From Thermoplasmata archaeon (lineage in GTDB: Archaea; Thermoplasmatota; Thermoplasmata; Thermoplasmatales; Thermoplasmataceae), in NCBI GenBank assembly GCA_021797295.1, contig JAKAAA010000043.1, positions 1 to 8,871 of the forward strand: DNA of 8,871 bases. Direction: 5' to 3'. The position numbers were made by a program, and so were the translations under genes. The notes beneath the pieces were generated by a model. The model was not told where the DNA came from, searched no databases, and saw only the letters and a list, made by a program, of their open reading frames with translations. Below, one piece after another: positions 1 to 8,871 of this stretch; position 1 is the stretch's first letter; each line of letters opens with the position of its first letter.

Positions 1-363
1 CCTATGCCGATCTACGAGGAAACACTGCCTCAAATGAATTCTTCCATTTATTATTCCTATCTGGGGAATTCAGAGAACTTTACCCACTTGAGCAGCAATG
101 GATTTAATTATTACTTATTTAATAATACTTATAAAAATCAGTCAATTTTAATGTACGAGCTTAATTCAAATATAAGCAAATTGGTGAATAATTTCAATAG
201 CACAAATTTAGGTGCAGTAAAAAATCTTACCAATAATTTGTATATGTATATACACCCATCCCCTGGAAAGGTTGAAATGAAAGTTTATTACCAGTCCTAT
301 GTTTCAATGGGCAATAGTGTGAATGGGCAGGGAATCATATTTTTCAATAATATCAGTGATTGA
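1..363 (+). CDS. C-terminal part of an Asn/Ser/Tyr-rich, probably surface-exposed protein
   Basis: This is the 3' end of a gene that probably starts before the window. The frame is open from base 1 to a TGA at 361-363, and the first ATG (4-6) has no promoter or ribosome-binding context in view. The 119 residues counted from that ATG are rich in Asn, Ser and Tyr and contain eight N-X-S/T sequons, at Asn 12, 25, 40, 45, 56, 65, 74 and 116. There is little Lys/Arg and no transmembrane segment. Archaeal exported and cell-surface proteins often look like this, and Thermoplasmatales are known to N-glycosylate surface proteins, so an extracellular location is inferred. The visible part has no C-terminal membrane anchor. 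I do not recognise the family: a thermopsin-like protease, an S-layer-type protein or another secreted protein are all possible. It converges on the ABC-transporter operon with a 32-bp gap. Confidence 0.6.
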   Translation, partial: PMPIYEETLPQMNSSIYYSYLGNSENFTHLSSNGFNYYLFNNTYKNQSILMYELNSNISKLVNNFNSTNLGAVKNLTNNLYMYIHPSPGKVEMKVYYQSYVSMGNSVNGQGIIFFNNISD

Positions 364-395
364 ATATGTTCCTATTTCAAATCAATCTTCTTATA

Positions 396-1547
396 CTATA
401 TTTCCACTATTGCATCAAACAGCTTATCAATATTCCCGGTTAGTCTTTCCCCCTGGCATAAGTATAGGCAGGCCATGGGTTGAAATGTTTTCATTATTTT
501 CACATATCCTGAAATTTCCTCAAGCTTAAGCGCGTTGAGTGAAATATCAATAATTATTGCTGATTTGTCGGTAAGAAATCCTATGCCTGTAATAAGTTTA
601 TAAATTTCTGCAACCGGAATGTCTCCTGCTAGTTTGCTATATTCCTCCCTGTGGAACTGGATTCCCATAAGGTTGAGTTCGTTGTCAAGGAGTGTTAGAA
701 ATTCATTTTTCAGAATATTTTCGCTGTAAGCTCTTGTAAATTTTAAGGTCATAAAATCTATATTTTTTCTCCATGTACGGTTAAATTTTCTAACATTATG
801 GTGATGTCTTATATCTTTACTTACTGTAATAGACAGACGTTTATTTTCATATAAAAAACGGTCAAGGTTTAAACGGTATTTATAGTAATCCCGTAGAACA
901 ACAATATCAGCAAGGTTTATTCCTATCTTTCTTCTTATAATTAGAGATGCTATAACATCCCTCCTGTCAGGTTTTTTCGATTGAAGCGCATTATAAATGC
1001 TGTTATATATATCCATGATGCCGAAATCCCTGCAAACTGATATGGTAAAGGCTCTTTTGTCAACTGCAGCATCAAAGTCTTTTATAAACCCATCTATTTC
1101 AGTGATTTTGATCATTTCCCGTCTTATTGCTGCGTTGAGTACTTCTATCCTGGTTTCATATGGAATAAAATCAAGTATCTGGGAACTAACTTCTGTTCCC
1201 GCATCGAAGAGGTCCAGTGGATTTGCCGGTACTGGTAATATATCTCCCAGAAGGTATGCAGTGATTCCTATCCTTCTTCCGTTTATCCTGAATTTTTTAA
1301 TGTTTGAAATAAGATCAATTAAATTTGTTTTTCTATGTATAATTGCACCGGAATATCTGTAATTATTAAAGAAGTCAAAGGTAAAAATCTTGATAATAGA
1401 TGATACTTCCGCATTCTTTGATATCAGTAAAACCTCATCATTATCATTCAACTGCAATGTAACATCGCCTACCAGTTTATTATCTCCGGCGTACATATTA
1501 AAATGGTTAAAGGAAAGGATTGAATTTTCACATTCATTTGCCTTCAT
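396..1547 (-). CDS. Degenerate ABC-transporter ATPase-like protein (pseudo-NBD) of a peptide-type operon
   Basis: This 383-residue protein can be laid over an oligopeptide-type ABC ATPase (DppD/DppF) at both ends. Residues 10-55 match the first beta-strands, ending in LLISKNAEVSSI where LVGESGSGKST is expected. Residues 86-125 match the Q-loop region (INGRRIGITAY). Residues 303-383 match the signature-to-switch region. The nucleotide-handling residues are missing: Walker A has Ser49 in place of Lys and no glycines; the Q-loop Gln is absent; LSGGQ reads LAGDI (306-310); Walker B IIIDIS keeps Asp334 but has Ile335 for the catalytic Glu; the H-loop His is Gln365. The middle (about 135-300) is longer than a normal helical subdomain, with a basic stretch near 246-261. 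The chain stops after the last core strand, without the usual oligopeptide C-terminal extension. The frame is fully open and an SD (GGGTGAT) sits 5 nt before the ATG, so it looks expressed. ATP hydrolysis is unlikely; a scaffold or regulatory partner is inferred. Confidence 0.72.
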   Translation of the reverse strand: MKANECENSILSFNHFNMYAGDNKLVGDVTLQLNDNDEVLLISKNAEVSSIIKIFTFDFFNNYRYSGAIIHRKTNLIDLISNIKKFRINGRRIGITAYLLGDILPVPANPLDLFDAGTEVSSQILDFIPYETRIEVLNAAIRREMIKITEIDGFIKDFDAAVDKRAFTISVCRDFGIMDIYNSIYNALQSKKPDRRDVIASLIIRRKIGINLADIVVLRDYYKYRLNLDRFLYENKRLSITVSKDIRHHHNVRKFNRTWRKNIDFMTLKFTRAYSENILKNEFLTLLDNELNLMGIQFHREEYSKLAGDIPVAEIYKLITGIGFLTDKSAIIIDISLNALKLEEISGYVKIMKTFQPMACLYLCQGERLTGNIDKLFDAIVEI

Positions 1548-2352
1548 CTGCTATCACCCCCCTGATTTCATAGCTCAAAAGTGCGGTAAAACCTATGAAA
1601 ATCGTGATAAACAGCAGTGGAAATACTACAATCCACCAGATTCCGAACAGCAGTAAAAGATTTACGTTGCCACCTAGATACATTAAATTGCCGATATCCA
1701 CCACAAACGGATTTTTAAAATAGAACCCGAAATATGTTATAATAACAACAATTCCACTTATCGCTCCCATATCAGTTAAAATATACGGAAGAAACTTTAA
1801 AAATGTCCAGTGTTTTCCAATCCTTCCGGAATTCTTCCCCAGATCAGAAACTTCCATATACCTGATAATGTAAAAGGGAAACCATCCAACGGAGATGGCA
1901 GCAATCATTCCTGTCTGGTTTGGCCGGGCTATATAAAGTATAAGGAGCATTACCAGCAAGTATGGGGCAGCGGTTAACGTTCGGACAAAATAAAAGATAA
2001 ATTTACGTAAAATGCCTCCTGTATAATTTGCTATAAACCCTATCCCTATTCCCGCTATTGCGGAGATAATAAGGGATTCAAACATCACCGTAAAATCAAA
2101 TTTCAGGGAACCGAGAAGTGCAGGAAGGATAGAAATACCGTAGTATGTTGTTCCAAAGTAATCCCACCAGCCCTTATCCAGAGTCGGGGGAGATGGTATA
2201 ACAGATGATGTTTTTTTGAATACCAGCAGGGTTGACAGGGATTTGACATTAATATACTGGGGATGCACTATATCAAGGATAAATGCAATCATGTATAATG
2301 CTATGAAGAAAATGCTAATTCCTATATATATATCCCTGGAATTAAATTTCAT
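1534..2352 (-). CDS. dppC: DppC-like ABC transporter permease
   Basis: This is a polytopic membrane protein of 272 residues, the second permease of a peptide/nickel-type (DppBC) importer. Six hydrophobic segments lie at about 8-28, 91-108, 118-141, 149-164, 196-211 and 232-259. After the first is the family landmark YFGTTYYGISILPALL (65-80), corresponding to the LGTDxLGRDxLSRL motif of DppC, although its charged residues are lost. A C-terminal WWIVVFPLLF segment matches the usual PWLVLFPG region. The EAA loop, which touches the ATPase, is hard to recognise around 168-190 (SDLGKNSGRIGKH); only the conserved glycine remains. A GTG at 2361 would add three residues, but GGGGTGG stands 5 nt before the ATG at 2352, so I choose the ATG. 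It overlaps the upstream permease gene by 11 nt and the downstream ATPase-like gene by 14 nt. Substrate is unknown; dipeptides or oligopeptides are the default family guess. Confidence 0.8.
   Translation of the reverse strand: MKFNSRDIYIGISIFFIALYMIAFILDIVHPQYINVKSLSTLLVFKKTSSVIPSPPTLDKGWWDYFGTTYYGISILPALLGSLKFDFTVMFESLIISAIAGIGIGFIANYTGGILRKFIFYFVRTLTAAPYLLVMLLILYIARPNQTGMIAAISVGWFPFYIIRYMEVSDLGKNSGRIGKHWTFLKFLPYILTDMGAISGIVVIITYFGFYFKNPFVVDIGNLMYLGGNVNLLLLFGIWWIVVFPLLFITIFIGFTALLSYEIRGVIADEGK
1553..1559 (-). promoter_or_regulatory. Shine-Dalgarno site for the pseudo-ATPase gene
   Basis: On the minus strand GGGTGAT lies 5 nt before the ATG at 1547, inside the end of the dppC-like gene. It matches the archaeal SD consensus GGAGGTGAT and fixes the start codon of the downstream gene. 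Confidence 0.75.
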
Positions 2353-3358
2353 TTTTTCCACCCCTGTTGATCAGGTCTATTAAAAGATCAAATATAATGA
2401 TCATGAGTGATAGAATAAAGACACTGTAAATGCCGCCCATTATTCCGTATTCATAGTCCAAAAATGAATAAATTGCAAGTTCTCCTGTATTCATATATGA
2501 AAATATGTAGCTTATTAATACCATTCCACCCATGAATACAACAAACATCCATTTCATGTCACTCAATATCCTAGATTTGATACCTCTTTTTATGTATCTT
2601 ACATAATTATCGGCAAAAGCATCCCTGGTAATTCCGGCTTTCATATACTTTTTATTGTATTCTATTGAAGCTTCATGGCTTATAAATACACTTAGATAAA
2701 TTGTGGTTGGTATAAAGAGTGAAAAAAACGGAAGTGCCATGTGCCTGAGATAATCAAAAAATACATAAGTGGAACCGTGAACAATACTATCTATTAAAAT
2801 AATATTTGTGGGTCTGGTTATGTAAATACTGTTACCGGTGGATGAAATCCAGTTATTAGCTGCAACTGACCCTGCTGAAAGGATGCCCTGTGATGGCAGC
2901 CACCCCAGTATGCCCGCAAATACGGTAAGCAACAAAAGACCGGATACAAAATATAAAAACATCAGTGGAAATATATTCATATTCAGCGTTTTTGTGATTT
3001 TAAATGCAGTGCCCGATCGGAGGCCGATAAAATATGATGCTGTATAGGATATAGCCAATGTTATAATCAGGAACAATACTGTTTCTGGAACTGTTATGAA
3101 TACTGCTCTGGAAACTGCTCCTGTATAAAGGGTTGTATCTGTATTCCCCATAGTTCCCCATATCAGAGAATGCAGAAAATAAAAATACTGAAAAACTATA
3201 TTTTTATGGAGCCCCAGAACATCTATAGAGCTTCCCGGGAAATCATTTTTTACAATATTAATTGGTACAAATTTAAAAGCAGTGAACAGGAATATAGTTA
3301 CCCCTATGAATATCAAAAAATATTTTACAAGAATACCTATTATTTTTCTCCACTGCAT
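2342..3358 (-). CDS. dppB: DppB-like ABC transporter permease
   Basis: This 338-residue membrane protein is the first gene of the ABC operon. Hydrophobic segments lie at about 9-29, 88-112, 127-152, 209-227, 271-290 and 308-330. DppB landmarks are visible: VPETVLFLIITLAISY (90-105), LGWLPSQG (151-158, the lgWlPxxG motif), YLRHMALPFFSL (203-214, the HlxLPxxxL motif), FLDYEYGIMGG (299-309, the RDYPxxqG region) and a closing LIDLINRGG (328-334). The EAA coupling loop (about 229-262) keeps HEAS, EYNKKYMKAG and one glycine but diverges from the consensus. About 45 residues between segment 1 and segment 2 face outside and are shorter than in many homologues. Translation starts at the ATG at 3358 without an SD, 28 nt downstream of a TATA box, which fits a leaderless transcript. 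Together with the dppC-like gene it would form the membrane channel. Confidence 0.83.
   Translation of the reverse strand: MQWRKIIGILVKYFLIFIGVTIFLFTAFKFVPINIVKNDFPGSSIDVLGLHKNIVFQYFYFLHSLIWGTMGNTDTTLYTGAVSRAVFITVPETVLFLIITLAISYTASYFIGLRSGTAFKITKTLNMNIFPLMFLYFVSGLLLLTVFAGILGWLPSQGILSAGSVAANNWISSTGNSIYITRPTNIILIDSIVHGSTYVFFDYLRHMALPFFSLFIPTTIYLSVFISHEASIEYNKKYMKAGITRDAFADNYVRYIKRGIKSRILSDMKWMFVVFMGGMVLISYIFSYMNTGELAIYSFLDYEYGIMGGIYSVFILSLMIIIFDLLIDLINRGGKNEI
2358..2364 (-). promoter_or_regulatory. Shine-Dalgarno site deciding the dppC-like start
   Basis: GGGGTGG on the minus strand lies 5 nt before the ATG at 2352. An in-frame GTG at 2361 falls within this SD and is therefore unlikely to be the start codon. 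Confidence 0.65.
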
Positions 3359-3655
3359 TGTAACACACAGATTAAACTGATAAATTTAAATCTTTATGTC
3401 TGACAGATTATGCTGGACTGTACTCTTTATTATATATATCAACATCAGGAAGTGCTTAACTGTCTGGGATCATAATATTTATTTCGTCTCTAAAATCGGG
3501 TTAATTGCACGGATCATTTTTATATCACATAAAAAACGTCGAATTTATGCCATTAATTTTTGCAGAACTGAATATGATTCGATGTACATCTACTTTTCAT
3601 GCAATTACTGTTTCCCTATGCTTTCATTCGCAATTCCGGGCAACAATATATTTCA
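3359..3655. other. Intergenic region of about 300 bp with promoter elements and no supported gene
   Basis: Apart from the TATA box of the ABC operon at its left edge, this AT-rich stretch holds a second strong TATA-like tract, TTATTATATATAT at 3427-3439, which could serve as a more distant promoter on the minus strand. The six-base inverted pair TCGAAT/ATTCGA near 3539 and 3576 encloses about 30 nt. I see no tRNA, no convincing C/D-box or other RNA, and no terminator stem. An 87-codon + strand frame at 3396-3659 gives an unlikely Cys/Tyr/Ile-rich peptide without a start signal. Confidence 0.5.
3381..3391 (-). promoter_or_regulatory. TATA box of the ABC-transporter operon
   Basis: On the minus strand ATTTAAATTTA, preceded by a purine-rich BRE-like AAAG, is centred 28 nt before the dppB-like ATG. 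There is no SD before that ATG. Both facts fit an archaeal promoter that produces a leaderless mRNA. Confidence 0.6.
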
Positions 3656-4189
3656 TTAATTGCTGCCTTCCATGTTAGAGGTAAAATAAGTCATCAGGAC
3701 ATCATCTGTATACCGGTTTCCTATCATGAACTGCCTTTTCCTGACTCCCTCATATTCAAATCCCAGTTTCCTGTAAGTATTTATGGCATTTACATTGCTT
3801 GAAAAAACCTCCAGATTTATTTTTTCTATCCCCTGTTCCTTTGACCAGGATATTGCCTCTTTTATCATCCCTGTTCCGATGTTCATATGCCTGAATTCTT
3901 TTTTGATTGCAATTCCCAGGGATGCTGTGTGCCTGTTTTTTTTATACATGCCACGCTGTATGGTTGTAACCCCCACTATTTTTCCATTCAATTCGCAGAC
4001 AAGTGTAAGGTCATCCCTGCTCTTCAGCCTTTCCTGCTCTCCACGTTCTGTTAATAAATAGTATTCGCTGACCAGATAAATCTTTTCATCCATTACACTC
4101 TGCATGCATTCTATAATTCCATGGGCATCTCCAGGGACTCCTCTCCGGATTAAATAATTCTCTGTCTGTTCATGTTTTTTGAGCATCAT
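3656..4189 (-). CDS. GNAT-family N-acetyltransferase
   Basis: This 177-residue protein has the size and order of a single GNAT domain, which transfers acetyl from acetyl-CoA to an amine. The N-terminal strand and helix (about 11-35) are followed by strands LTLVCELNGKIVGVTTIQ (61-78). Motif A is LGIAIKKEFRHMNIGTGM (91-108); its NIGTG is the pyrophosphate-binding turn, though the usual Arg/Gln three residues before the first glycine is Met102. Motif B is NLEVFSSNVNAINTYRKLGF (125-144), followed by YEGVRKRQFM and a closing DDVLMTYF strand (162-169), typical of acetyltransferases acting on amino acids, peptides or small amines. The substrate cannot be told. The first ATG (4189) is chosen because GGAG lies 5 nt upstream; a second ATG follows directly. 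The start overlaps the regulator gene stop as ATGA, so the two are cotranscribed and probably translationally coupled. Confidence 0.85.
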   Translation of the reverse strand: MMLKKHEQTENYLIRRGVPGDAHGIIECMQSVMDEKIYLVSEYYLLTERGEQERLKSRDDLTLVCELNGKIVGVTTIQRGMYKKNRHTASLGIAIKKEFRHMNIGTGMIKEAISWSKEQGIEKINLEVFSSNVNAINTYRKLGFEYEGVRKRQFMIGNRYTDDVLMTYFTSNMEGSN

Positions 4190-4509
4190 GGCGACTCCAG
4201 AATATTTTTCAGTTCCTTATATATATTTTCCATACTCTGCGCATTGGCTCTTGCGTCTGCAAGTATTTTATCGCGGTTTGCAATAAAATCAGATGTCAGT
4301 ATAGCACCCTCCCTCGAAGCCTCTATTATGCCTCCATGTTCCAGAATCCTCAGTGAATACCTGATTTTATGCTCCGGTATGCCTGTTTGCTGGGACATTT
4401 TAATTATTCCCATTGGCTGTTCCATAAGCAGTGTCTTAATTATGGTGAGATGCCTTTCAAGGGTTTCTATATTTTCCTTTACCTCCTTAAAAATTGAAGA
4501 ATCATTCAT
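4186..4509 (-). CDS. Small winged-helix transcriptional regulator
   Basis: This is a 107-residue, mostly helical protein. The N-terminal helix (about 4-29, SSIFKEVKENIETLERHLTI) could form a coiled-coil dimer contact. A winged helix follows: helix MGIIKMSQQTG (33-43), recognition helix PEHKIRYSLRILEHGGII (45-62) and a short wing EASREGAILT (63-72). A C-terminal helix (about 74-104) completes it. The architecture matches the predicted archaeal wHTH regulators common in Thermoplasmata (COG3432-like); the ligand and targets are unknown. An in-frame TTG at 4524 would add five residues, but the ATG at 4509 is preferred because a TATA-like tract lies about 26 nt upstream, which suits a leaderless start. 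The gene precedes the acetyltransferase with an ATGA overlap, so the regulator may control its own operon. Confidence 0.75.
   Translation of the reverse strand: MNDSSIFKEVKENIETLERHLTIIKTLLMEQPMGIIKMSQQTGIPEHKIRYSLRILEHGGIIEASREGAILTSDFIANRDKILADARANAQSMENIYKELKNILESP
4195..4198 (-). promoter_or_regulatory. Shine-Dalgarno site of the acetyltransferase gene
   Basis: GGAG on the minus strand, inside the end of the regulator gene, stands 5 nt before the first of two adjacent ATG codons. The same 5-nt spacing is seen for the dppC-like, pseudo-ATPase and trpG genes, which favours the first ATG. Confidence 0.5.
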
Positions 4510-4530
4510 GGTAATAAATAACAAGCCATT

Positions 4531-4540
4531 ATTTATTATT
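4531..4540 (-). promoter_or_regulatory. Probable TATA box of the regulator-acetyltransferase operon
   Basis: The minus strand reads AATAATAAATAA in the region 22-31 nt before the ATG at 4509. No SD precedes that ATG. The AT-rich context makes the exact box uncertain. Confidence 0.4.
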
Positions 4541-4583
4541 TTGTAAACTTATGAAAATCATAATAATTGAATTTTGTTGAGTC

Positions 4584-4595
4584 AATTCATGAATT
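4584..4595. repeat. 12-bp perfect palindrome, candidate operator
   Basis: AATTCATGAATT is its own reverse complement. Its half-site TGAATT also occurs at 4568-4573, giving the arrangement TGAATT, then AATTCA (4584-4589), then TGAATT (4590-4595). It lies about 45 bp upstream of the putative TATA box of the regulator gene and downstream of the 80-residue protein gene. A binding site for the neighbouring winged-helix protein is possible; chance in AT-rich DNA is the alternative. Confidence 0.35.
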
Positions 4596-4643
4596 ATAAT
4601 CTCTTCATATCTGCAAAGAAGATGAATCTTAAACCAGAAATTT

Positions 4644-4886
4644 TCAGGCAAATTTTATAACTTCAGGATCATAAATAACTTTTTCCCTGTCCATTATGGT
4701 AAACCTAGCAGTTGTATTGATTATGGATCGTATTTTATCCTTGCGTTCCCCGATATATTCATCATATTTTTCCGGATTCTTTGAATTTTCCCTAATTTTT
4801 AATGTGTTGTTGAGAAGCGCTATCTGGAGTTTGATTTCGAACTGCTTTCTCTCATCAAAGTCATTTATATCAAAAATCTTTACCAT
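4644..4886 (-). CDS. Small hypothetical protein (80 aa)
   Basis: I do not recognise this protein. It has 80 charged residues and no membrane segment, signal peptide or cysteine. A predominantly helical, Lys/Glu/Arg-rich part (about 9-57, including FEIKLQIALLNNTLKIRE) is followed by a probable beta hairpin (60-79, ARFTIMDREKVIYDPEVIKF). Coding is supported by a sensible soluble composition, the ATG start and a TATA-like tract at the expected distance. It is divergent from rtcB, with 146 bp between the start codons, and reads toward the regulator gene with a gap of 134 bp. A nucleic-acid-binding or partner protein is conceivable from size and charge, but nothing in the sequence shows it. Confidence 0.6.
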   Translation of the reverse strand: MVKIFDINDFDERKQFEIKLQIALLNNTLKIRENSKNPEKYDEYIGERKDKIRSIINTTARFTIMDREKVIYDPEVIKFA

Positions 4887-4907
4887 TTAGCCCTTATTAC
4901 TTTATTA

Positions 4908-4918
4908 TTTTATTAATT
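4908..4918 (-). promoter_or_regulatory. Possible TATA box of the 80-aa protein gene
   Basis: The minus strand carries TTAATAAAATAAT-like sequence 22-32 nt before the ATG at 4886, preceded by an A-run. The context is so AT-rich that the box cannot be placed exactly. GGG, 5-7 nt before the ATG, could be a minimal SD instead. Confidence 0.35.
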
Positions 4919-4999
4919 TTTTTATTTTAGAAGATTCTGGAATTTCCATTGATTTTCATATATCCCCATTTTCAGGATTATAAAATCCATAAAAACTAA

Positions 5000-5014
5000 A
5001 AACTATTATGTTTA
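5000..5014 (+). promoter_or_regulatory. Probable promoter element of rtcB
   Basis: AAACTATTATGTTTA is centred about 26 nt before the rtcB ATG at 5033, and no SD precedes that ATG, consistent with a leaderless start. It is a weak match to the archaeal TATA consensus. A better-looking ATTATAAAAT at 4978-4987 would give a leader of about 25 nt. A short inverted repeat, TAACC (5013-5017) and GGTTA (5025-5029), overlaps the expected transcription start. Confidence 0.35.
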
Positions 5015-5032
5015 ACCGTATAATGGTTATAT

Positions 5033-6460
5033 ATGTTGCAGATCAATAAATTAAGCGATTTTCAGTACCAAATCCCTGTAACAGGCAATATGAAAGTTCC
5101 GGGGATGCTATATATCAACGATCGCATATTGAAAAATTTCAGCGATGATGAACCACTCCGGCAGGTCATGAATGTGGCATCTCTTCCCGGAATAGTAAAA
5201 GCTTCCATGGCAATGCCGGATATACATCTCGGATATGGCTTTCCTATAGGCGGGGTTGCGGCCTTTGATTATTATGATGGAATAGTGTCCCCGGGCGGTG
5301 TCGGTTATGATATAAATTGCGGTGTTTCCCTGATTGCAACGGATCTGGATTATGATGAATATAAAGGCCATGTGGACAGTGTACTTGACGAACTCTATAA
5401 AACTGTCCCTGCCGGCATAGATAACAAATCGAGCTTCAGGATTAACAGTGATGATGAAAACGAAATTCTTTCTTCCGGCCTGAAATGGGCATACAGCAAG
5501 GGATACGCAACAGAAAATGATATGATACACACAGAAGAGAATGGATATATTCCTGCAAATATTGATGCTGTGAGTGAAAAAGCTATAAAGAGGGGCAAAA
5601 ACGAGCTCGGGACCCTTGGAGCCGGAAACCATTTTCTCGAAATAGATAGAATTGATAAGGTTATTAATCCTGAAATAGCAGGTAAATTTGGAACAGGAAT
5701 AAAAAATAAACTTGCCATAATGGTACATACAGGATCAAGGGGGACGGGGCACCAGGTGGCAACTGATTACCTTCTGCGGTTAAATGAGGATAGTGAAAGT
5801 GTAAAAATCCCGGAAGACAGGCAGCTTATATCCGCATATGCCAGCAGCAAATTAGGCGAAGATTATATGGACGCCATGAATGCAGCTGCAAATTTTGGCT
5901 TCGTAAACCGGCAGATTATAACCTATAAAATAAGGAGGGCATTTGAAAAGATAACCGGTCTGGATTCAGATAGCATGGGCATTCAAGTAGTTTACAGCCT
6001 GGCACACAATATGGCAAAGGTTGAAACCCATAGCATCGACGGAATCAAAAAGAAGGTAATCGTGCACAGAAAAGGAGCAACGAGAGCCCAGCCGGCAGGC
6101 ATATCAGATGGATATTTTCAGGAAACTGGCCATCCGGTGATTATACCGGGCCATATGGCCGGCCCCTCATATATACTGGTGGGATTGCCTGGAAATGAAG
6201 AAACAACATTTTCCAGTTCATGCCATGGCGCGGGAAGATTGCTGAGCAGGAAAAGGGCCAGTGAGGAATTCTCTGCAGATAATGTCAGAGATGACATGAG
6301 GTCCAGGGGAATATACCTGCGTGCAACAACAAATAAGGCGGTTGTTGAAGAATCCCCGGGAAGCTATAAAAACATTGACGATGTAATCGAGGTGATCCAG
6401 GGGGCCAGAATAGCATCCCCTGTGGCATCCCTGATGCCTGTGGCTGTCATGAAAGGATAA
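5033..6460 (+). CDS. rtcB: RNA-splicing ligase RtcB
   Basis: RtcB joins a 2',3'-cyclic phosphate or 3'-phosphate RNA end to a 5'-hydroxyl end using GTP and Mn2+. In archaea it seals tRNA halves after intron removal. The 475 residues match the archaeal family over the full length, with no intein. Metal and guanylate residues known from Pyrococcus RtcB are all visible: Asp93 and Cys96 in GYDINCGV, His200 with Asn199 in LGAGNHFLEI, His232 in VHTGSRGTGHQ, His325 with Asn326 in SLAHNMAKVE, and the nucleophile His398 in SSCHGAGR. MPDIHLGYGFPIGG (61-74) and VHRKGATRA (344-352) are also intact, and the C-terminus is the normal PVAVMKG. The start gives the usual N-terminus about 20 residues before KVPGMLY. 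No archease gene lies beside it. It converges on the DAHP synthase gene with a 4-bp gap. Confidence 0.97.
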   Translation: MLQINKLSDFQYQIPVTGNMKVPGMLYINDRILKNFSDDEPLRQVMNVASLPGIVKASMAMPDIHLGYGFPIGGVAAFDYYDGIVSPGGVGYDINCGVSLIATDLDYDEYKGHVDSVLDELYKTVPAGIDNKSSFRINSDDENEILSSGLKWAYSKGYATENDMIHTEENGYIPANIDAVSEKAIKRGKNELGTLGAGNHFLEIDRIDKVINPEIAGKFGTGIKNKLAIMVHTGSRGTGHQVATDYLLRLNEDSESVKIPEDRQLISAYASSKLGEDYMDAMNAAANFGFVNRQIITYKIRRAFEKITGLDSDSMGIQVVYSLAHNMAKVETHSIDGIKKKVIVHRKGATRAQPAGISDGYFQETGHPVIIPGHMAGPSYILVGLPGNEETTFSSSCHGAGRLLSRKRASEEFSADNVRDDMRSRGIYLRATTNKAVVEESPGSYKNIDDVIEVIQGARIASPVASLMPVAVMKG

Positions 6461-6464
6461 AAGC

Positions 6465-7247
6465 TCAAATCATGGTTTTTCCTAAAATTCCCACTATTTT
6501 CTGAACCTTTCCGTAAAGGTCATTGAATTGCTGTACAGTAAGCTGCTGCGCTGCATCGCTCAGTGCCTTCGATGGCTCCGGGTGCACCTCGATCATCAGC
6601 CCATCTGCACCTGCTGCGGCCCCTCCCATTGCAAGGGGCTCAACATACCTGTTAACCCCTGCAGGGTGGCTCGGATCTATTATTACCGGGTATTCAGTTT
6701 TTTCATGCAGTACCGGAATTGCGGATATATCCAGAGTAAATCTTGTTGACTGTTCGAAAGTCCTTATTCCCCTTTCGGAGAACATAATATTATGATTGCC
6801 ATTCATTGATAGGTACCGGGATGATGAAATAAGTTCATCCACGGTGTTGCCGAAGCCTCTTTTCAATAAAACCGGTTTTTTCTGTTTGCTCACCTTTTTT
6901 AAAAGTGAAAAATTCTGAGAATTCCTTGATCCTATCTGAATAATATCTGCATATTCTTCAATCAATGGCAGGTCTTCGACATCCATTACCTCGGTAATTA
7001 TAGCCATGCCTGTGGCATCCCTTGCACGTGAAAGAAGCTTGAGACCATCCTCTCCCAGCCCCTGGAATGAATCAGGGCATGTTCTGGGTTTGAATGCTCC
7101 GCCTCTCAGCACATTCACACCGGTTTTTTTCAGTTCCTTTGCAACGCCGACAATCTGTTCCTCATCTTCAACCGAGCAGGGCCCGGCTATCATGAGAAAC
7201 TTATCGTCCGTCAGGCTTAATTCATCAGTTATTTTTACGTTTACCAT
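6465..7247 (-). CDS. aroF: 3-deoxy-7-phosphoheptulonate (DAHP) synthase, type I-beta, stand-alone
   Basis: This enzyme condenses phosphoenolpyruvate and erythrose 4-phosphate to DAHP, the first step of the shikimate pathway. The 260 residues cover only the catalytic TIM barrel, without the ferredoxin-like/ACT or chorismate-mutase extension that gives feedback control in some relatives. Motifs in order: AGPCSVE (21-27, metal ligand Cys24), RGGAFKPRT (48-56), IGSRNSQNF (105-113), LLKRGFGNT (127-135), ERGIRTFE (158-165), DPSHPAG (191-197, His194), and GLMIEVHPEP (216-225, Glu220) with Asp231 eleven residues on, completing the Cys/His/Glu/Asp metal site. The family more often reads IGARNMQNF and PRTSPYSFQG; here these are IGSRNSQNF and PRTCPDSFQG. 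The gene follows trpC by 4 bp with a strong SD and is the last gene of the trp operon. The symbol follows common use for this subtype. Confidence 0.94.
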   Translation of the reverse strand: MVNVKITDELSLTDDKFLMIAGPCSVEDEEQIVGVAKELKKTGVNVLRGGAFKPRTCPDSFQGLGEDGLKLLSRARDATGMAIITEVMDVEDLPLIEEYADIIQIGSRNSQNFSLLKKVSKQKKPVLLKRGFGNTVDELISSSRYLSMNGNHNIMFSERGIRTFEQSTRFTLDISAIPVLHEKTEYPVIIDPSHPAGVNRYVEPLAMGGAAAGADGLMIEVHPEPSKALSDAAQQLTVQQFNDLYGKVQKIVGILGKTMI

Positions 7248-7250
7248 ACG

Positions 7251-7258
7251 ATCACCTT
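7251..7258 (-). promoter_or_regulatory. Shine-Dalgarno site of the DAHP synthase gene containing the trpC stop codon
   Basis: AAGGTGAT on the minus strand lies 3 nt before the ATG at 7247. The TGA within it (7254-7252) is the trpC stop codon, so terminating ribosomes sit on the initiation site of the next gene. This suggests translational coupling. Confidence 0.75.
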
Positions 7259-7962
7259 ATTTCATCGCCGGAAAGTATTGACGCCCCTATGAGCAGGCCA
7301 TTGTATTTACCTGTATTGAGGTTCTGGATATTCCCTGATGTTATGCCGCTTTCGAGTATCAACGGGAGGCCATATGACCTGAGGCGGTCATATACATCTT
7401 CCGCTTTATCCTCCATTTTCAGTGTTCTGAGATTTCTCCTGTTGTATCCTATCAGTACATTTTCTCCGGGAAATATATTTTCAATCCTGTCAGGGTCATG
7501 TACTTCAACAAGTGCCTCCATACCCAGTGAATTACCATACTTTACCAGATCCTTTACAGTGCTGTAATCAAGGAAATCACATATGAGGAGGAATACGTCT
7601 CCACCGGCCATAAATGATGATTGTACCATTTTACGGCTGGATATGAAATCCTTAATCAGGATTGGTTTGTTATAGCATTGCACGGCTCTGGCATCTAACT
7701 GGTCACCACCAAAGTATTGAGGTTCCGTTAAAATACTGATTCCTGCGATGATTTCCTTTATGTTATTAAAGTATTTAAGTATATCAGTATTTGATTTATT
7801 TCTGAAACCTGATGGTGATTTCCTCTTGAATTCTGCTATTATCCCCGGCTTCTTTTCCGTTTTCTCAAGAGCACGCTTAAGGCTGACGGTCTCTCTTTCC
7901 CTCATGTTGAATTCCAGCATTTCACGCTTATTATTTCCTGAATAAATACTATCAACTATCAT
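7252..7962 (-). CDS. trpC: Indole-3-glycerol-phosphate synthase
   Basis: TrpC closes the indole ring, turning carboxyphenylaminodeoxyribulose phosphate into indole-3-glycerol phosphate in tryptophan synthesis. The 236 residues form one TIM barrel, slightly shorter than the 248-residue Sulfolobus enzyme. Active-site residues are all present: Glu44 and Lys46 in AEFKRKSPS, Lys104 in LIKDF, Glu153 in LVEVHD, Asn174 in IGYNRRNL, and Glu204-Ser205 in LESGI. The general acid/base lysine and glutamate pairs known from Sulfolobus (Lys53, Lys110, Glu159) are thus matched. The loop IGYNRRNL differs from the common IGINNRDL by a Tyr and an Arg. The phosphate-binding end LLIGASIL (223-230) is normal. The ATG overlaps the trpG stop as ATGA, and only a weak SD is visible, so translation probably depends on coupling to trpG. 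Confidence 0.93.
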   Translation of the reverse strand: MIVDSIYSGNNKREMLEFNMRERETVSLKRALEKTEKKPGIIAEFKRKSPSGFRNKSNTDILKYFNNIKEIIAGISILTEPQYFGGDQLDARAVQCYNKPILIKDFISSRKMVQSSFMAGGDVFLLICDFLDYSTVKDLVKYGNSLGMEALVEVHDPDRIENIFPGENVLIGYNRRNLRTLKMEDKAEDVYDRLRSYGLPLILESGITSGNIQNLNTGKYNGLLIGASILSGDEIR

Positions 7963-8519
7963 AGAGCATCAACAAAATTTTTGAAAATGGTTTTTCCATA
8001 ATCTGAATAGTAACTTTCGGGATGGAACTGGACACCGTAAAAACGTCCGTCTTTTGAATGGAATCCCATGATCTCCCCATCTGTTTCAGAAAGGGCATCC
8101 ACAACTATTTCATTTCCACCTGATAGCACCAGTGAATGATAACGTATGGCAGTGAATTTTTCTGGAATTCCATTATAGAGAAGCGAATGGCTATGTCTTA
8201 TGGTATCAGGCTGGCCATGCATGATCCTCTTTGCAAGAACAATATCGCAGCCCAGGTAATATCCCAGAATCTGATTACCGAAGCAGACGCCCAGAAATTT
8301 CGATTCCCTGTTATTATCTATAAATTCATAGAGATTTCCTCTGTCCTCTATTTTTACCGGATTCCCGGGGCCAGGAGATATTATATATCCATCATATTTC
8401 CCGGCATTTGCAAGCTTATCATTTGTTTTTATATCAACCTGCAGATCCGGGGAGGCTATATACTGATATATGTTGTAAGTGAAGGAATCATAGTTGTCAA
8501 TAATCAATATTTTTTTCAT
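7959..8519 (-). CDS. trpG: Anthranilate synthase component II (glutamine amidotransferase)
   Basis: TrpG releases ammonia from glutamine and passes it to TrpE for anthranilate formation. It is a class I glutamine amidotransferase of 186 residues, a normal length. Counting from the chosen ATG: DNYDSFTYNI (8-17), the oxyanion region SPGPGNP (48-54), nucleophile Cys79 in GVCFGNQ, the TrpG-type RYHSL (126-130), and the His166/Glu168 pair in VQFHPES. The usual GVCLGHQ is changed to GVCFGNQ; that His is not catalytic. A GTG at 8528 would add Met-Asp-Tyr, but AGGTGG stands 5 nt before the ATG at 8519 and the family usually begins MKKILIIDNYDSF, so the ATG is chosen. The gene overlaps the end of trpE by 23 nt and the start of trpC by 4 nt. 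PabA (folate) is an alternative for this family, but trp neighbours favour TrpG. Confidence 0.93.
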   Translation of the reverse strand: MKKILIIDNYDSFTYNIYQYIASPDLQVDIKTNDKLANAGKYDGYIISPGPGNPVKIEDRGNLYEFIDNNRESKFLGVCFGNQILGYYLGCDIVLAKRIMHGQPDTIRHSHSLLYNGIPEKFTAIRYHSLVLSGGNEIVVDALSETDGEIMGFHSKDGRFYGVQFHPESYYSDYGKTIFKNFVDAL

Positions 8520-8871
8520 ATAATCCACCTGTAACTGTCAGGATTTTTGAGTACATTTCATTCACCTCATTGGCTGGAATAGAATCCTTTACTATTCCGG
8601 CTCCTGCCTGTGTGTAGCTTTCCATGCCATTTCTGTAGAGGCTGCGTATAAGAAGGGCAAGGTCAAGTTTGCCGCTGCCGGCAATTCCGAGAGCCCCGGC
8701 ATATGGGCCTCTGGGGTATTTTTCATACTGGTTAATCAATGTCATTGCCTTCTTCTTGGGGGCACCGCTTACTGTTCCGGCCGGAAATACCGATGCAAGG
8801 ATGTCACCGAATCCAGAATTCTCCGGAATCCCAGATACCCTGCTGACCAGATGCTGCACACTGGCAAATTT
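8497..8871 (-). CDS. trpE: Anthranilate synthase component I, C-terminal part (cut by window edge)
   Basis: TrpE makes anthranilate from chorismate and ammonia. Only the last 124 residues are inside the window; the frame is open to base 8871 and the start lies beyond it. Visible chorismate-binding-fold motifs are QHLVSRVSG near the edge (usually hHLvSxVeG), VFPAGTVSGAPKKKAM, the YAGALG segment, and QAGAGIVKDSIPANE, all close to the TrpE/PabB consensus. The last residues KNIDY overlap the trpG start. The N-terminal part that would hold any tryptophan feedback site is not in view. PabB or another chorismate-utilising enzyme cannot be excluded from this part alone, but the trpG and trpC neighbours make TrpE much more likely. 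Confidence 0.92.
   Translation of the reverse strand, partial: KFASVQHLVSRVSGIPENSGFGDILASVFPAGTVSGAPKKKAMTLINQYEKYPRGPYAGALGIAGSGKLDLALLIRSLYRNGMESYTQAGAGIVKDSIPANEVNEMYSKILTVTGGLYEKNIDY
8525..8530 (-). promoter_or_regulatory. Shine-Dalgarno site deciding the trpG start
   Basis: AGGTGG on the minus strand, inside the trpE coding region, lies 5 nt before the ATG at 8519. The alternative GTG at 8528 falls within this SD, which argues against it as the start. Confidence 0.65.

Follow-up and report, generated by a model that had tools for sequence, protein, structure and literature searches.

DppD*, a pseudo-ATPase in a dipeptide-type ABC importer of Ferroplasma and its relatives that seems to have given up ATP

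The window analysed here is an 8,871-nucleotide stretch from a Thermoplasmata archaeon (GenBank assembly GCA_021797295.1, contig JAKAAA010000043.1, positions 1 to 8,871). It contains a gene, dppD*, whose product resembles DppD, an ATPase of dipeptide-type ATP-binding cassette (ABC) importers, but no longer has the residues needed to handle ATP. By its sequence DppD* is a pseudo-ATPase, and the importer as a whole seems to have abandoned ATP. This reading is based on the observed loss of the nucleotide motifs, the lack of dppF at the locus, shrinkage of a DppC loop and purifying selection on the genes concerned; the ABC fold of the protein is predicted.

396..1547, minus strand: dppD*, pseudo-ATPase of 383 amino acids with a predicted ABC nucleotide-binding domain (NBD) fold and a helical insert; nucleotide motifs lost

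The reading frame runs uninterrupted over 383 codons, as a first-pass annotation of this DNA had reported without giving a strand; the good Shine-Dalgarno sequence that it mentioned was also found, with AGGGGGGTGAT lying upstream of dppD* on the minus strand and ending 5 nt from the ATG.

Nucleotide motifs and predicted fold of DppD*

1398..1421, minus strand: former Walker A motif, residues 43-50, SKNAEVSS where the canonical sequence is GESGCGKS
606..620, minus strand: former signature, residues 310-314, IPVAE where the canonical sequence is LSGGM, aligned through relatives
543..548, minus strand: Walker B Asp334, kept, with Ile335 in place of the catalytic Glu, from the alignment
453..455, minus strand: Gln365 in place of the switch His, from the alignment

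Walker A, the Q-loop Gln, the signature, the catalytic Glu and the switch His are all five lost from the window's DppD*, and Asp334 of Walker B is kept. The first-pass annotation had described every motif as erased; this holds for the five, including the Q-loop Gln which it omitted, but not for Asp334. Alignment confirmed its placing of Ser49, Ile335 and Gln365 at the positions of the Walker A Lys, the catalytic Glu and the switch His respectively. The signature is indeed lost; however, the LAGDI that was read in place of LSGGQ (residues 306-310) is misaligned, the true position being IPVAE (310-314), in a register placed via relatives (PHELSGGM / PEEIENPI / PSEIPVSD).

The motifs were tabulated for 19 degenerate rows (the window, 14 relatives and four loci) and for 37 canonical rows, hand-picked from 120 listed; the table leaves out P0001, which is 99% identical to the window's DppD*, while G061, G027 and G090 enter the genome-copy count only. 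That count covers 14 full-length dppD* copies, the copy in G090 being cut by the contig end. All motifs were kept in the 37 canonical rows, with DEAT replacing DEPT in one and THDLG replacing THDLA in one, whereas Walker A, the signature and the catalytic Glu were absent from all 19 degenerate rows. The Q-loop Gln was out of register in 19 of 19, by a single column in two (G026 and bin46), as was the switch His, by one residue in four; the Walker B Asp was present in 18 of the 19 rows and in 11 of the 14 genome copies. Among these copies the phosphate loop, an in-register Q-loop Gln and the signature were found in none (0/14 each), the catalytic Glu and the switch His in one each (1/14), and no copy had more than one of the five motif residues in register. 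Two residues of the former Walker A, Ser43 and Ser49, do not vary among the 14 closest proteins. At the level of sequence, erosion of the binding motifs is complete and that of the catalytic motifs nearly complete, and DppD* is predicted to have no working nucleotide site left. Chance does not account for the loss: every relative checked lacks both the phosphate loop and the signature, and purifying selection acts on these proteins.

A Pfam search with the window's DppD* gave no match up to E 1, including to PF00005 (ABC_tran); an NCBIfam match to ribK (E 0.04) and a PDB sequence match to ribosomal S8 (E ~0.8) were treated as noise. The predicted structure has an ABC NBD fold. The alignment behind the first model included the 37 canonical rows and could have forced this fold, but a repeat prediction from the 19 degenerate sequences alone returned the same one; Foldseek alone gave the model modest scores. 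The structural comparison proposed in the first-pass annotation therefore came out as an ABC NBD, and failure to match such a domain did not occur.

762..1166, minus strand: helical insert, residues 128-262 of DppD*, found in canonical Thermoplasmata DppD too

In the canonical proteins (L048:7154-8725, L049:5405-6982 and L061:3598-5160) this is a helical insert of ~150 residues between the Q-loop and the signature, which is absent from the aligned PDB relative Rv1281c.

The window's DppD* has no C-terminal oligo_HPY (PF08352)/4Fe-4S tail, C-x5-C-x6-C-x17-C. This four-Cys motif was found in 96 of 96 canonical rows (with the exact 5-6-17 spacing in 87) and is kept in six of 14 degenerate copies, five with the 5-6-17 spacing of E. 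coli DppD and one with 5-6-16; it is lost from seven Ferroplasma proteins, including the window's, and from Picrophilus (G090 was left out of this count, as from the tree and downstream count below). The lengths form a series, from ~525 amino acids in canonical DppD, through 439-465 (motifs lost, four-Cys tail kept) and 360-385 (tail lost), to 308 in Picrophilus. In E. coli DppD, Cys-to-Ser changes in the four-Cys motif make the complex fall apart (PMC12136057). As six of the 14 pseudo-ATPases keep the four Cys needed for stability of the E. coli complex, assembly seems to have outlived ATP use, with the Cys tail lost later.

Selection, distribution and the missing DppF

dppD* is the last of three overlapping genes in the order dppB*-dppC*-dppD*, with overlaps of 20 nt (dppB*/dppC*) and 14 nt (dppC* 3' end/dppD* start), and faces the gene of a solute-binding protein (SBP), SBP*.

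1534..2361, minus strand: dppC*, DppC/NikC-like permease of 275 amino acids
2342..3358, minus strand: dppB*, DppB-like permease of 338 amino acids
1..363, plus strand: 3' end of SBP*, a convergent gene for a membrane-tethered SBP_bac_5 binding protein

The ratio of nonsynonymous to synonymous substitution (dN/dS, NG86) was 0.189, 0.150, 0.144 and 0.139 for dppD* in four close pairs of genomes; in these pairs it was 0.12-0.18 for dppC*, 0.07-0.10 for dppB* and 0.09-0.16 for SBP*. dppB* had the lowest value of the four genes in three of the four pairs, the exception being G006/G005 (SBP* 0.094, dppB* 0.102). The neighbouring GNAT gene gave 0.04-0.10 and rtcB 0.173, 0.057 and 0.085 in three pairs, its 0.55 in G009/G003 being uninformative at dS 0.003. 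Values for the window's own pairs (with G006 and G008) are saturated (dS >1) and were kept out of the conclusion; G001 gave no values for the permeases or SBP*. The N-lobe, insert and C-lobe of DppD* each had bootstrap 95% limits below 1 (upper limit <=0.54) in G006/G005 and G026/bin46 (= G062), the two informative pairs on which the by-region claim rests; small pairs have wide intervals, the upper limit for the G009/G003 insert being 1.17. Because all three regions have limits below 1, the NBD shell, and not the insert alone, is held by selection. None of the 14 full-length dppD* copies has an internal stop. Start codons were set by homology, and those of dppB* in G004 and SBP* in G003 are not ATG, GTG or TTG. 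The signs of decay for which the first-pass annotation suggested examining orthologues, dN/dS near 1 and frameshifts, did not appear.

dppD* was present in ten of ten Ferroplasma genomes, in three of three of genus g18 and in both of genus g19, one of the latter being Picrophilus; in a search of 77 genomes of the family, many other genera were found to carry a DppD of ~525 amino acids. Together with the predicted ABC fold and the dN/dS of 0.14-0.19, this presence throughout Ferroplasma supports the earlier description of a conserved pseudo-ATPase. Identity of the window's protein to 14 other relatives is 43-56% for 12 of them, 84% for one and 27% for one. In a tree, a branch with SH-aLRT 99 sets the 14 degenerate proteins apart, although the program flags long branches, such as that of Picrophilus (2.87). 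A single origin of DppD* is likely on these sequences, and the shortened DppC loop in 14 of 14 copies (see below) gives it separate support.

Canonical dppD is followed, in the four loci read closely, by a dppF encoding 480-494 amino acids; no dppF was found downstream of dppD* in any of the 14 visible loci. A DppF query recovered near-full-length orthologues of at least 48% identity in genomes with canonical operons, and only partial, weaker matches among the top candidates scored in Ferroplasma, G026 and G027. As a DppF orthologue is also missing from some genomes of the family that show no canonical dppD (e.g. G013, G015 and G021), lacking DppF is not in itself diagnostic of the degenerate system. 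The window's assembly (91% complete) has no oligo_HPY ATPase, which reflects either a real loss of peptide ABC importers or assembly gaps. Each of the other nine Ferroplasma genomes has two to eight oligo_HPY matches. L049 has a GNAT gene and an rtcB-like gene near its canonical operon, and the degenerate operon thus seems to occupy the ancestral site.

The altered permeases and the explanations weighed

DppB* matched NCBIfam Opp4B (E 2e-12) and DppC* matched Opp2C (E 2e-7), both far below the curated cut-offs; DppB* scored 20.4 bits against Pfam BPD_transp_1 (cut-off 26.4) and DppC* had no Pfam match. These family matches (Pfam for DppB*, NCBIfam for both) are to ABC transporter permeases. 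The EAA loop between transmembrane helices 4 and 5 (TM4 and TM5) of the E. coli permeases is the docking site for the ATPases, DppD binding to DppB and DppF to DppC (PMC12136057).

1774..1869, minus strand: cytosolic TM4-TM5 loop of DppC* (EAA; DppF-docking by analogy with E. coli), 32 residues compared with 49 in canonical DppC

Each of the 20 distinct canonical DppC sequences counted, that of G077 among them, has 49 residues in this loop, compared with 33, 32, 31, 25 or 19 in all 14 degenerate copies with a visible dppC* (that of G001 lies beyond its contig), i.e. it is 16-30 residues short. The DppB* loop has 68 residues in 13 of 14 degenerate copies and 69 in the four canonical sequences compared; that of G061 is unanchored in the count and by eye appears to be of the same length. 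Assuming that the archaeal proteins pair as in E. coli, the DppF arm (DppC*) is withered and the DppD arm (DppB*) is not, and the shortened loop is the strongest argument against an ATPase acting in trans and for a one-armed complex. By comparison with three canonical sequences, DppB* has also gained charges in or near its membrane helices. K12 and K/R29 occur in all 14 proteins; E92 and E293 occur in each of the 12 from Ferroplasma and g18 and are absent from Picrophilus G027 and G090. The complete SBP* reading frame was found on contig C61 of the window's assembly, and SBP* is the sole SBP_bac_5 match in that assembly. Seven degenerate SBP* sequences (the 1-363 gene; L095:17-2521) have a short N-terminal cytosolic tail, [IM]P[DE]P...KWY, ahead of the membrane helix. 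The transporter operon, earlier called intact, does have its permeases and binding protein; dppF is missing, and both permeases and the SBP are altered.

Our tentative first choice is a dipeptide ABC importer that shed DppF, gave up the nucleotide handling of DppD and persisted as a complex independent of ATP. A DppA-like/DppB/DppC/DppD/DppF importer would have undergone these losses in an ancestor of Ferroplasma, Picrophilus and genus g18, with the remaining complex kept in ATP-independent use. DppD* would dock DppB* alone, as carried over from E. coli DppD-DppB, and its NBD shell and helical insert would act as a scaffold or gate in the cytosol; the other side of the complex would have no NBD. 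Ferroplasma-type acidophiles live on a large proton gradient. Less surely, the complex may still move or admit a peptide-like solute fed by the tethered SBP*, driven perhaps by the gradient of that solute or by the proton gradient. More tentative again is the fuller version, in which the importer was converted whole to an ATP-independent machine, with one NBD deleted and the other a pseudo-ATPase arm on a lopsided, plausibly proton-driven permease. We lean towards ATP-independent uptake over signalling because dppB* has the lowest dN/dS in three of four pairs, the SBP is kept, the proton gradient is large and the peptide importer SbmA offers a precedent (see below). The suggestion in the first-pass annotation of a channel or receptor that no longer uses ATP is close to this.

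Several observations weigh against this explanation. A receptor would leave much the same traces. That DppD* docks on DppB* is extrapolated from E. coli, and the EAA loop of DppB* has kept its length but changed most of its residues. The gained charges of DppB* (K12, K/R29 and E92) are candidates only for proton coupling, and E92 is absent from Picrophilus. SBP* matches SBP_bac_5 above cut-off, but only over approximately positions 4-226 of 368, and lacks a stretch of ~45 residues in the ligand-binding part by comparison with the one canonical SBP aligned; its ligand binding may have changed. Four Ferroplasma proteins (P0003, P0004, P0005 and P0007) have a His one residue after the switch position, and three of the 14 genome copies have a stray catalytic residue: Lys at the Walker A position in Picrophilus G027, without the glycine loop (the related G090 has Arg), Glu in G061 and the switch His in G004, whose nearest table row, P0015, has Tyr. 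These three may be chance or leftovers.

It is possible, though on balance we think it unlikely, that the complex is a receptor, in which SBP* with its ligand would shift DppB* and DppC*, and DppD*, chiefly its insert, would signal to a cytosolic partner with no transport. Mean pair identity across the 19 degenerate rows is 45.7% for the insert, 42.0% for the N-lobe and 35.1% for the signature-to-switch region, whereas canonical rows give 32.6% for the insert and 83.6% for signature-to-switch, which is a contrast and not a rate as the two sets differ in breadth. This pattern favours a receptor, as do the SBP* tail common to seven aligned degenerate sequences and the GNAT and helix-turn-helix (HTH) genes adjoining the operon. 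However, the N-lobe (54.4%) and insert (52.4%) are level in the 14 closest proteins, the operon lacks a dedicated output gene, a GNAT gene flanks the canonical operon of L049 too, so that the neighbourhood is old, and the lowest dN/dS is mostly in DppB* rather than DppD*. We consider it improbable that DppD* is a plain structural or assembly subunit of DppB*-DppC*, with no gating or signalling, in some non-transport use such as cell-surface architecture. The retention, in six of 14 proteins without the ATP motifs, of the four-Cys motif that stabilizes the E. coli complex would fit, and one of two SBP* sequences scanned has a weak PKD match, below cut-off; but the Cys domain is gone from the seven Ferroplasma proteins and Picrophilus, and weak PKD matches occur in the canonical SBP too.

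We reject as very improbable an ATPase in trans, in which DppD* would be the inactive member of a heterodimer and its functional partner NBD the product of another locus, a pairing that the first-pass annotation had offered. Many ABC exporters have one degenerate site (PMC7756269), and the window's assembly has 13 PF00005 matches. Nevertheless, a composite site needs Walker A and the opposite signature, of which DppD* supplies neither; the DppF matches among the top candidates scored in Ferroplasma, G026 and G027 are partial, the window's assembly, 91% complete, lacks oligo_HPY ATPases, the two other Opp-type NBD sets of G005 adjoin permeases of their own, and the partner-holding DppC loop is short in every copy. 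Least credible, and also rejected, is that the operon is a decaying relic without function. Its proteins diverge fast, with 12 of 14 relatives at 43-56% identity and long tree branches, and shorten stepwise; yet the 14 full-length dppD* copies are free of internal stops, dN/dS is 0.07-0.19 for all four genes in the four pairs, and every part of DppD* stays at or below the upper limit of 0.54 in the two most informative pairs.

Related systems and the neighbourhood of the operon

DppD of DppABCDF is the close known system (E. coli 8z1v chain C; M. tuberculosis DppABCD 8wd9 chain D). Compared with these proteins DppD* lacks Walker A, the Q-loop Gln, the signature, the catalytic Glu and the switch His, has an insert of ~150 residues and, in the window, lacks the oligo_HPY/[4Fe-4S] domain; there is no DppF. 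Of the DppABCDF parts, two permeases and a family-5 SBP are present, but not the DppD and DppF pair or both EAA coupling loops. Canonical Thermoplasmata DppD (Thermoplasma volcanium P0075, L061) has the same insert, sharing R143, E144, R219, Y221 and Y222, and unlike DppD* keeps all motifs and the Cys tail. Transporters of the ABC class in which one site is degenerate likewise have a conserved NBD that is predicted to be unable to hydrolyse ATP, but keep one working composite site, whereas here no partner NBD was found in an assembly that is 91% complete. Solitary BioY of energy-coupling factor (ECF) transporters reportedly mediates uptake by a component without its ATPase module; its membrane fold is unrelated to ABC importer permeases. 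SbmA/BacA (SLiPT) imports peptides with protons as the driving force and has a membrane domain of the ABC type (PMC13316013), and the putative likeness is an ABC-derived membrane domain that works without ATP; unlike SbmA/BacA, the system described here keeps an importer-type permease pair, a binding protein and a dead NBD. A study of the Picrophilus torridus secretome reports an Opp1 protein as well as a solute-binding protein, neither of which could be tied to this operon (PMC8345856), and the available portion of a treatment of the Ferroplasma-Acidiplasma-Picrophilus cluster has nothing on it (PMC10354927). A literature search, with most subscription journals outside its reach, found no report of this degenerate Dpp system, which is a variant on known ABC importers not reported before in the literature searched.

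No part of an ABC transporter is more conserved than its NBDs, and a gene that has lost their motifs is normally dead. In this case the lineage tolerated the loss, and selection has since maintained the altered protein while three genera diverged, together with the SBP, both permeases and the dead ATPase itself. The series of lengths and motifs shows how an importer can lose its motor stepwise, with the intermediates preserved in living species, and makes it possible to test both an importer-type permease working without ATP and the role of an NBD besides ATP. If the fuller version of our explanation is true, the system would link primary with secondary transport (or with a receptor) in the evolution of importer-type ABC systems, much as SbmA does for another type of ABC system.

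Contig C84 is 14168 bases long and the window maps to 14407, which leaves the window's positions 1-239 past the end of that contig. Upstream of dppB* are genes for a GNAT acetyltransferase (3656-4189) and a small HTH protein (4186-4524) that overlap by 4 nt; matches of the HTH protein to CggR/TrmB are weak and below cut-off, and a similar GNAT/HTH pair precedes dppB* in several Ferroplasma genomes. The genes at 6465-8871, which overlap or nearly so, we take to belong to aromatic amino-acid metabolism: a DAHP (3-deoxy-D-arabino-heptulosonate 7-phosphate) synthase-like gene (6465-7247), trpC-like and trpG-like genes and a trpE-like end.
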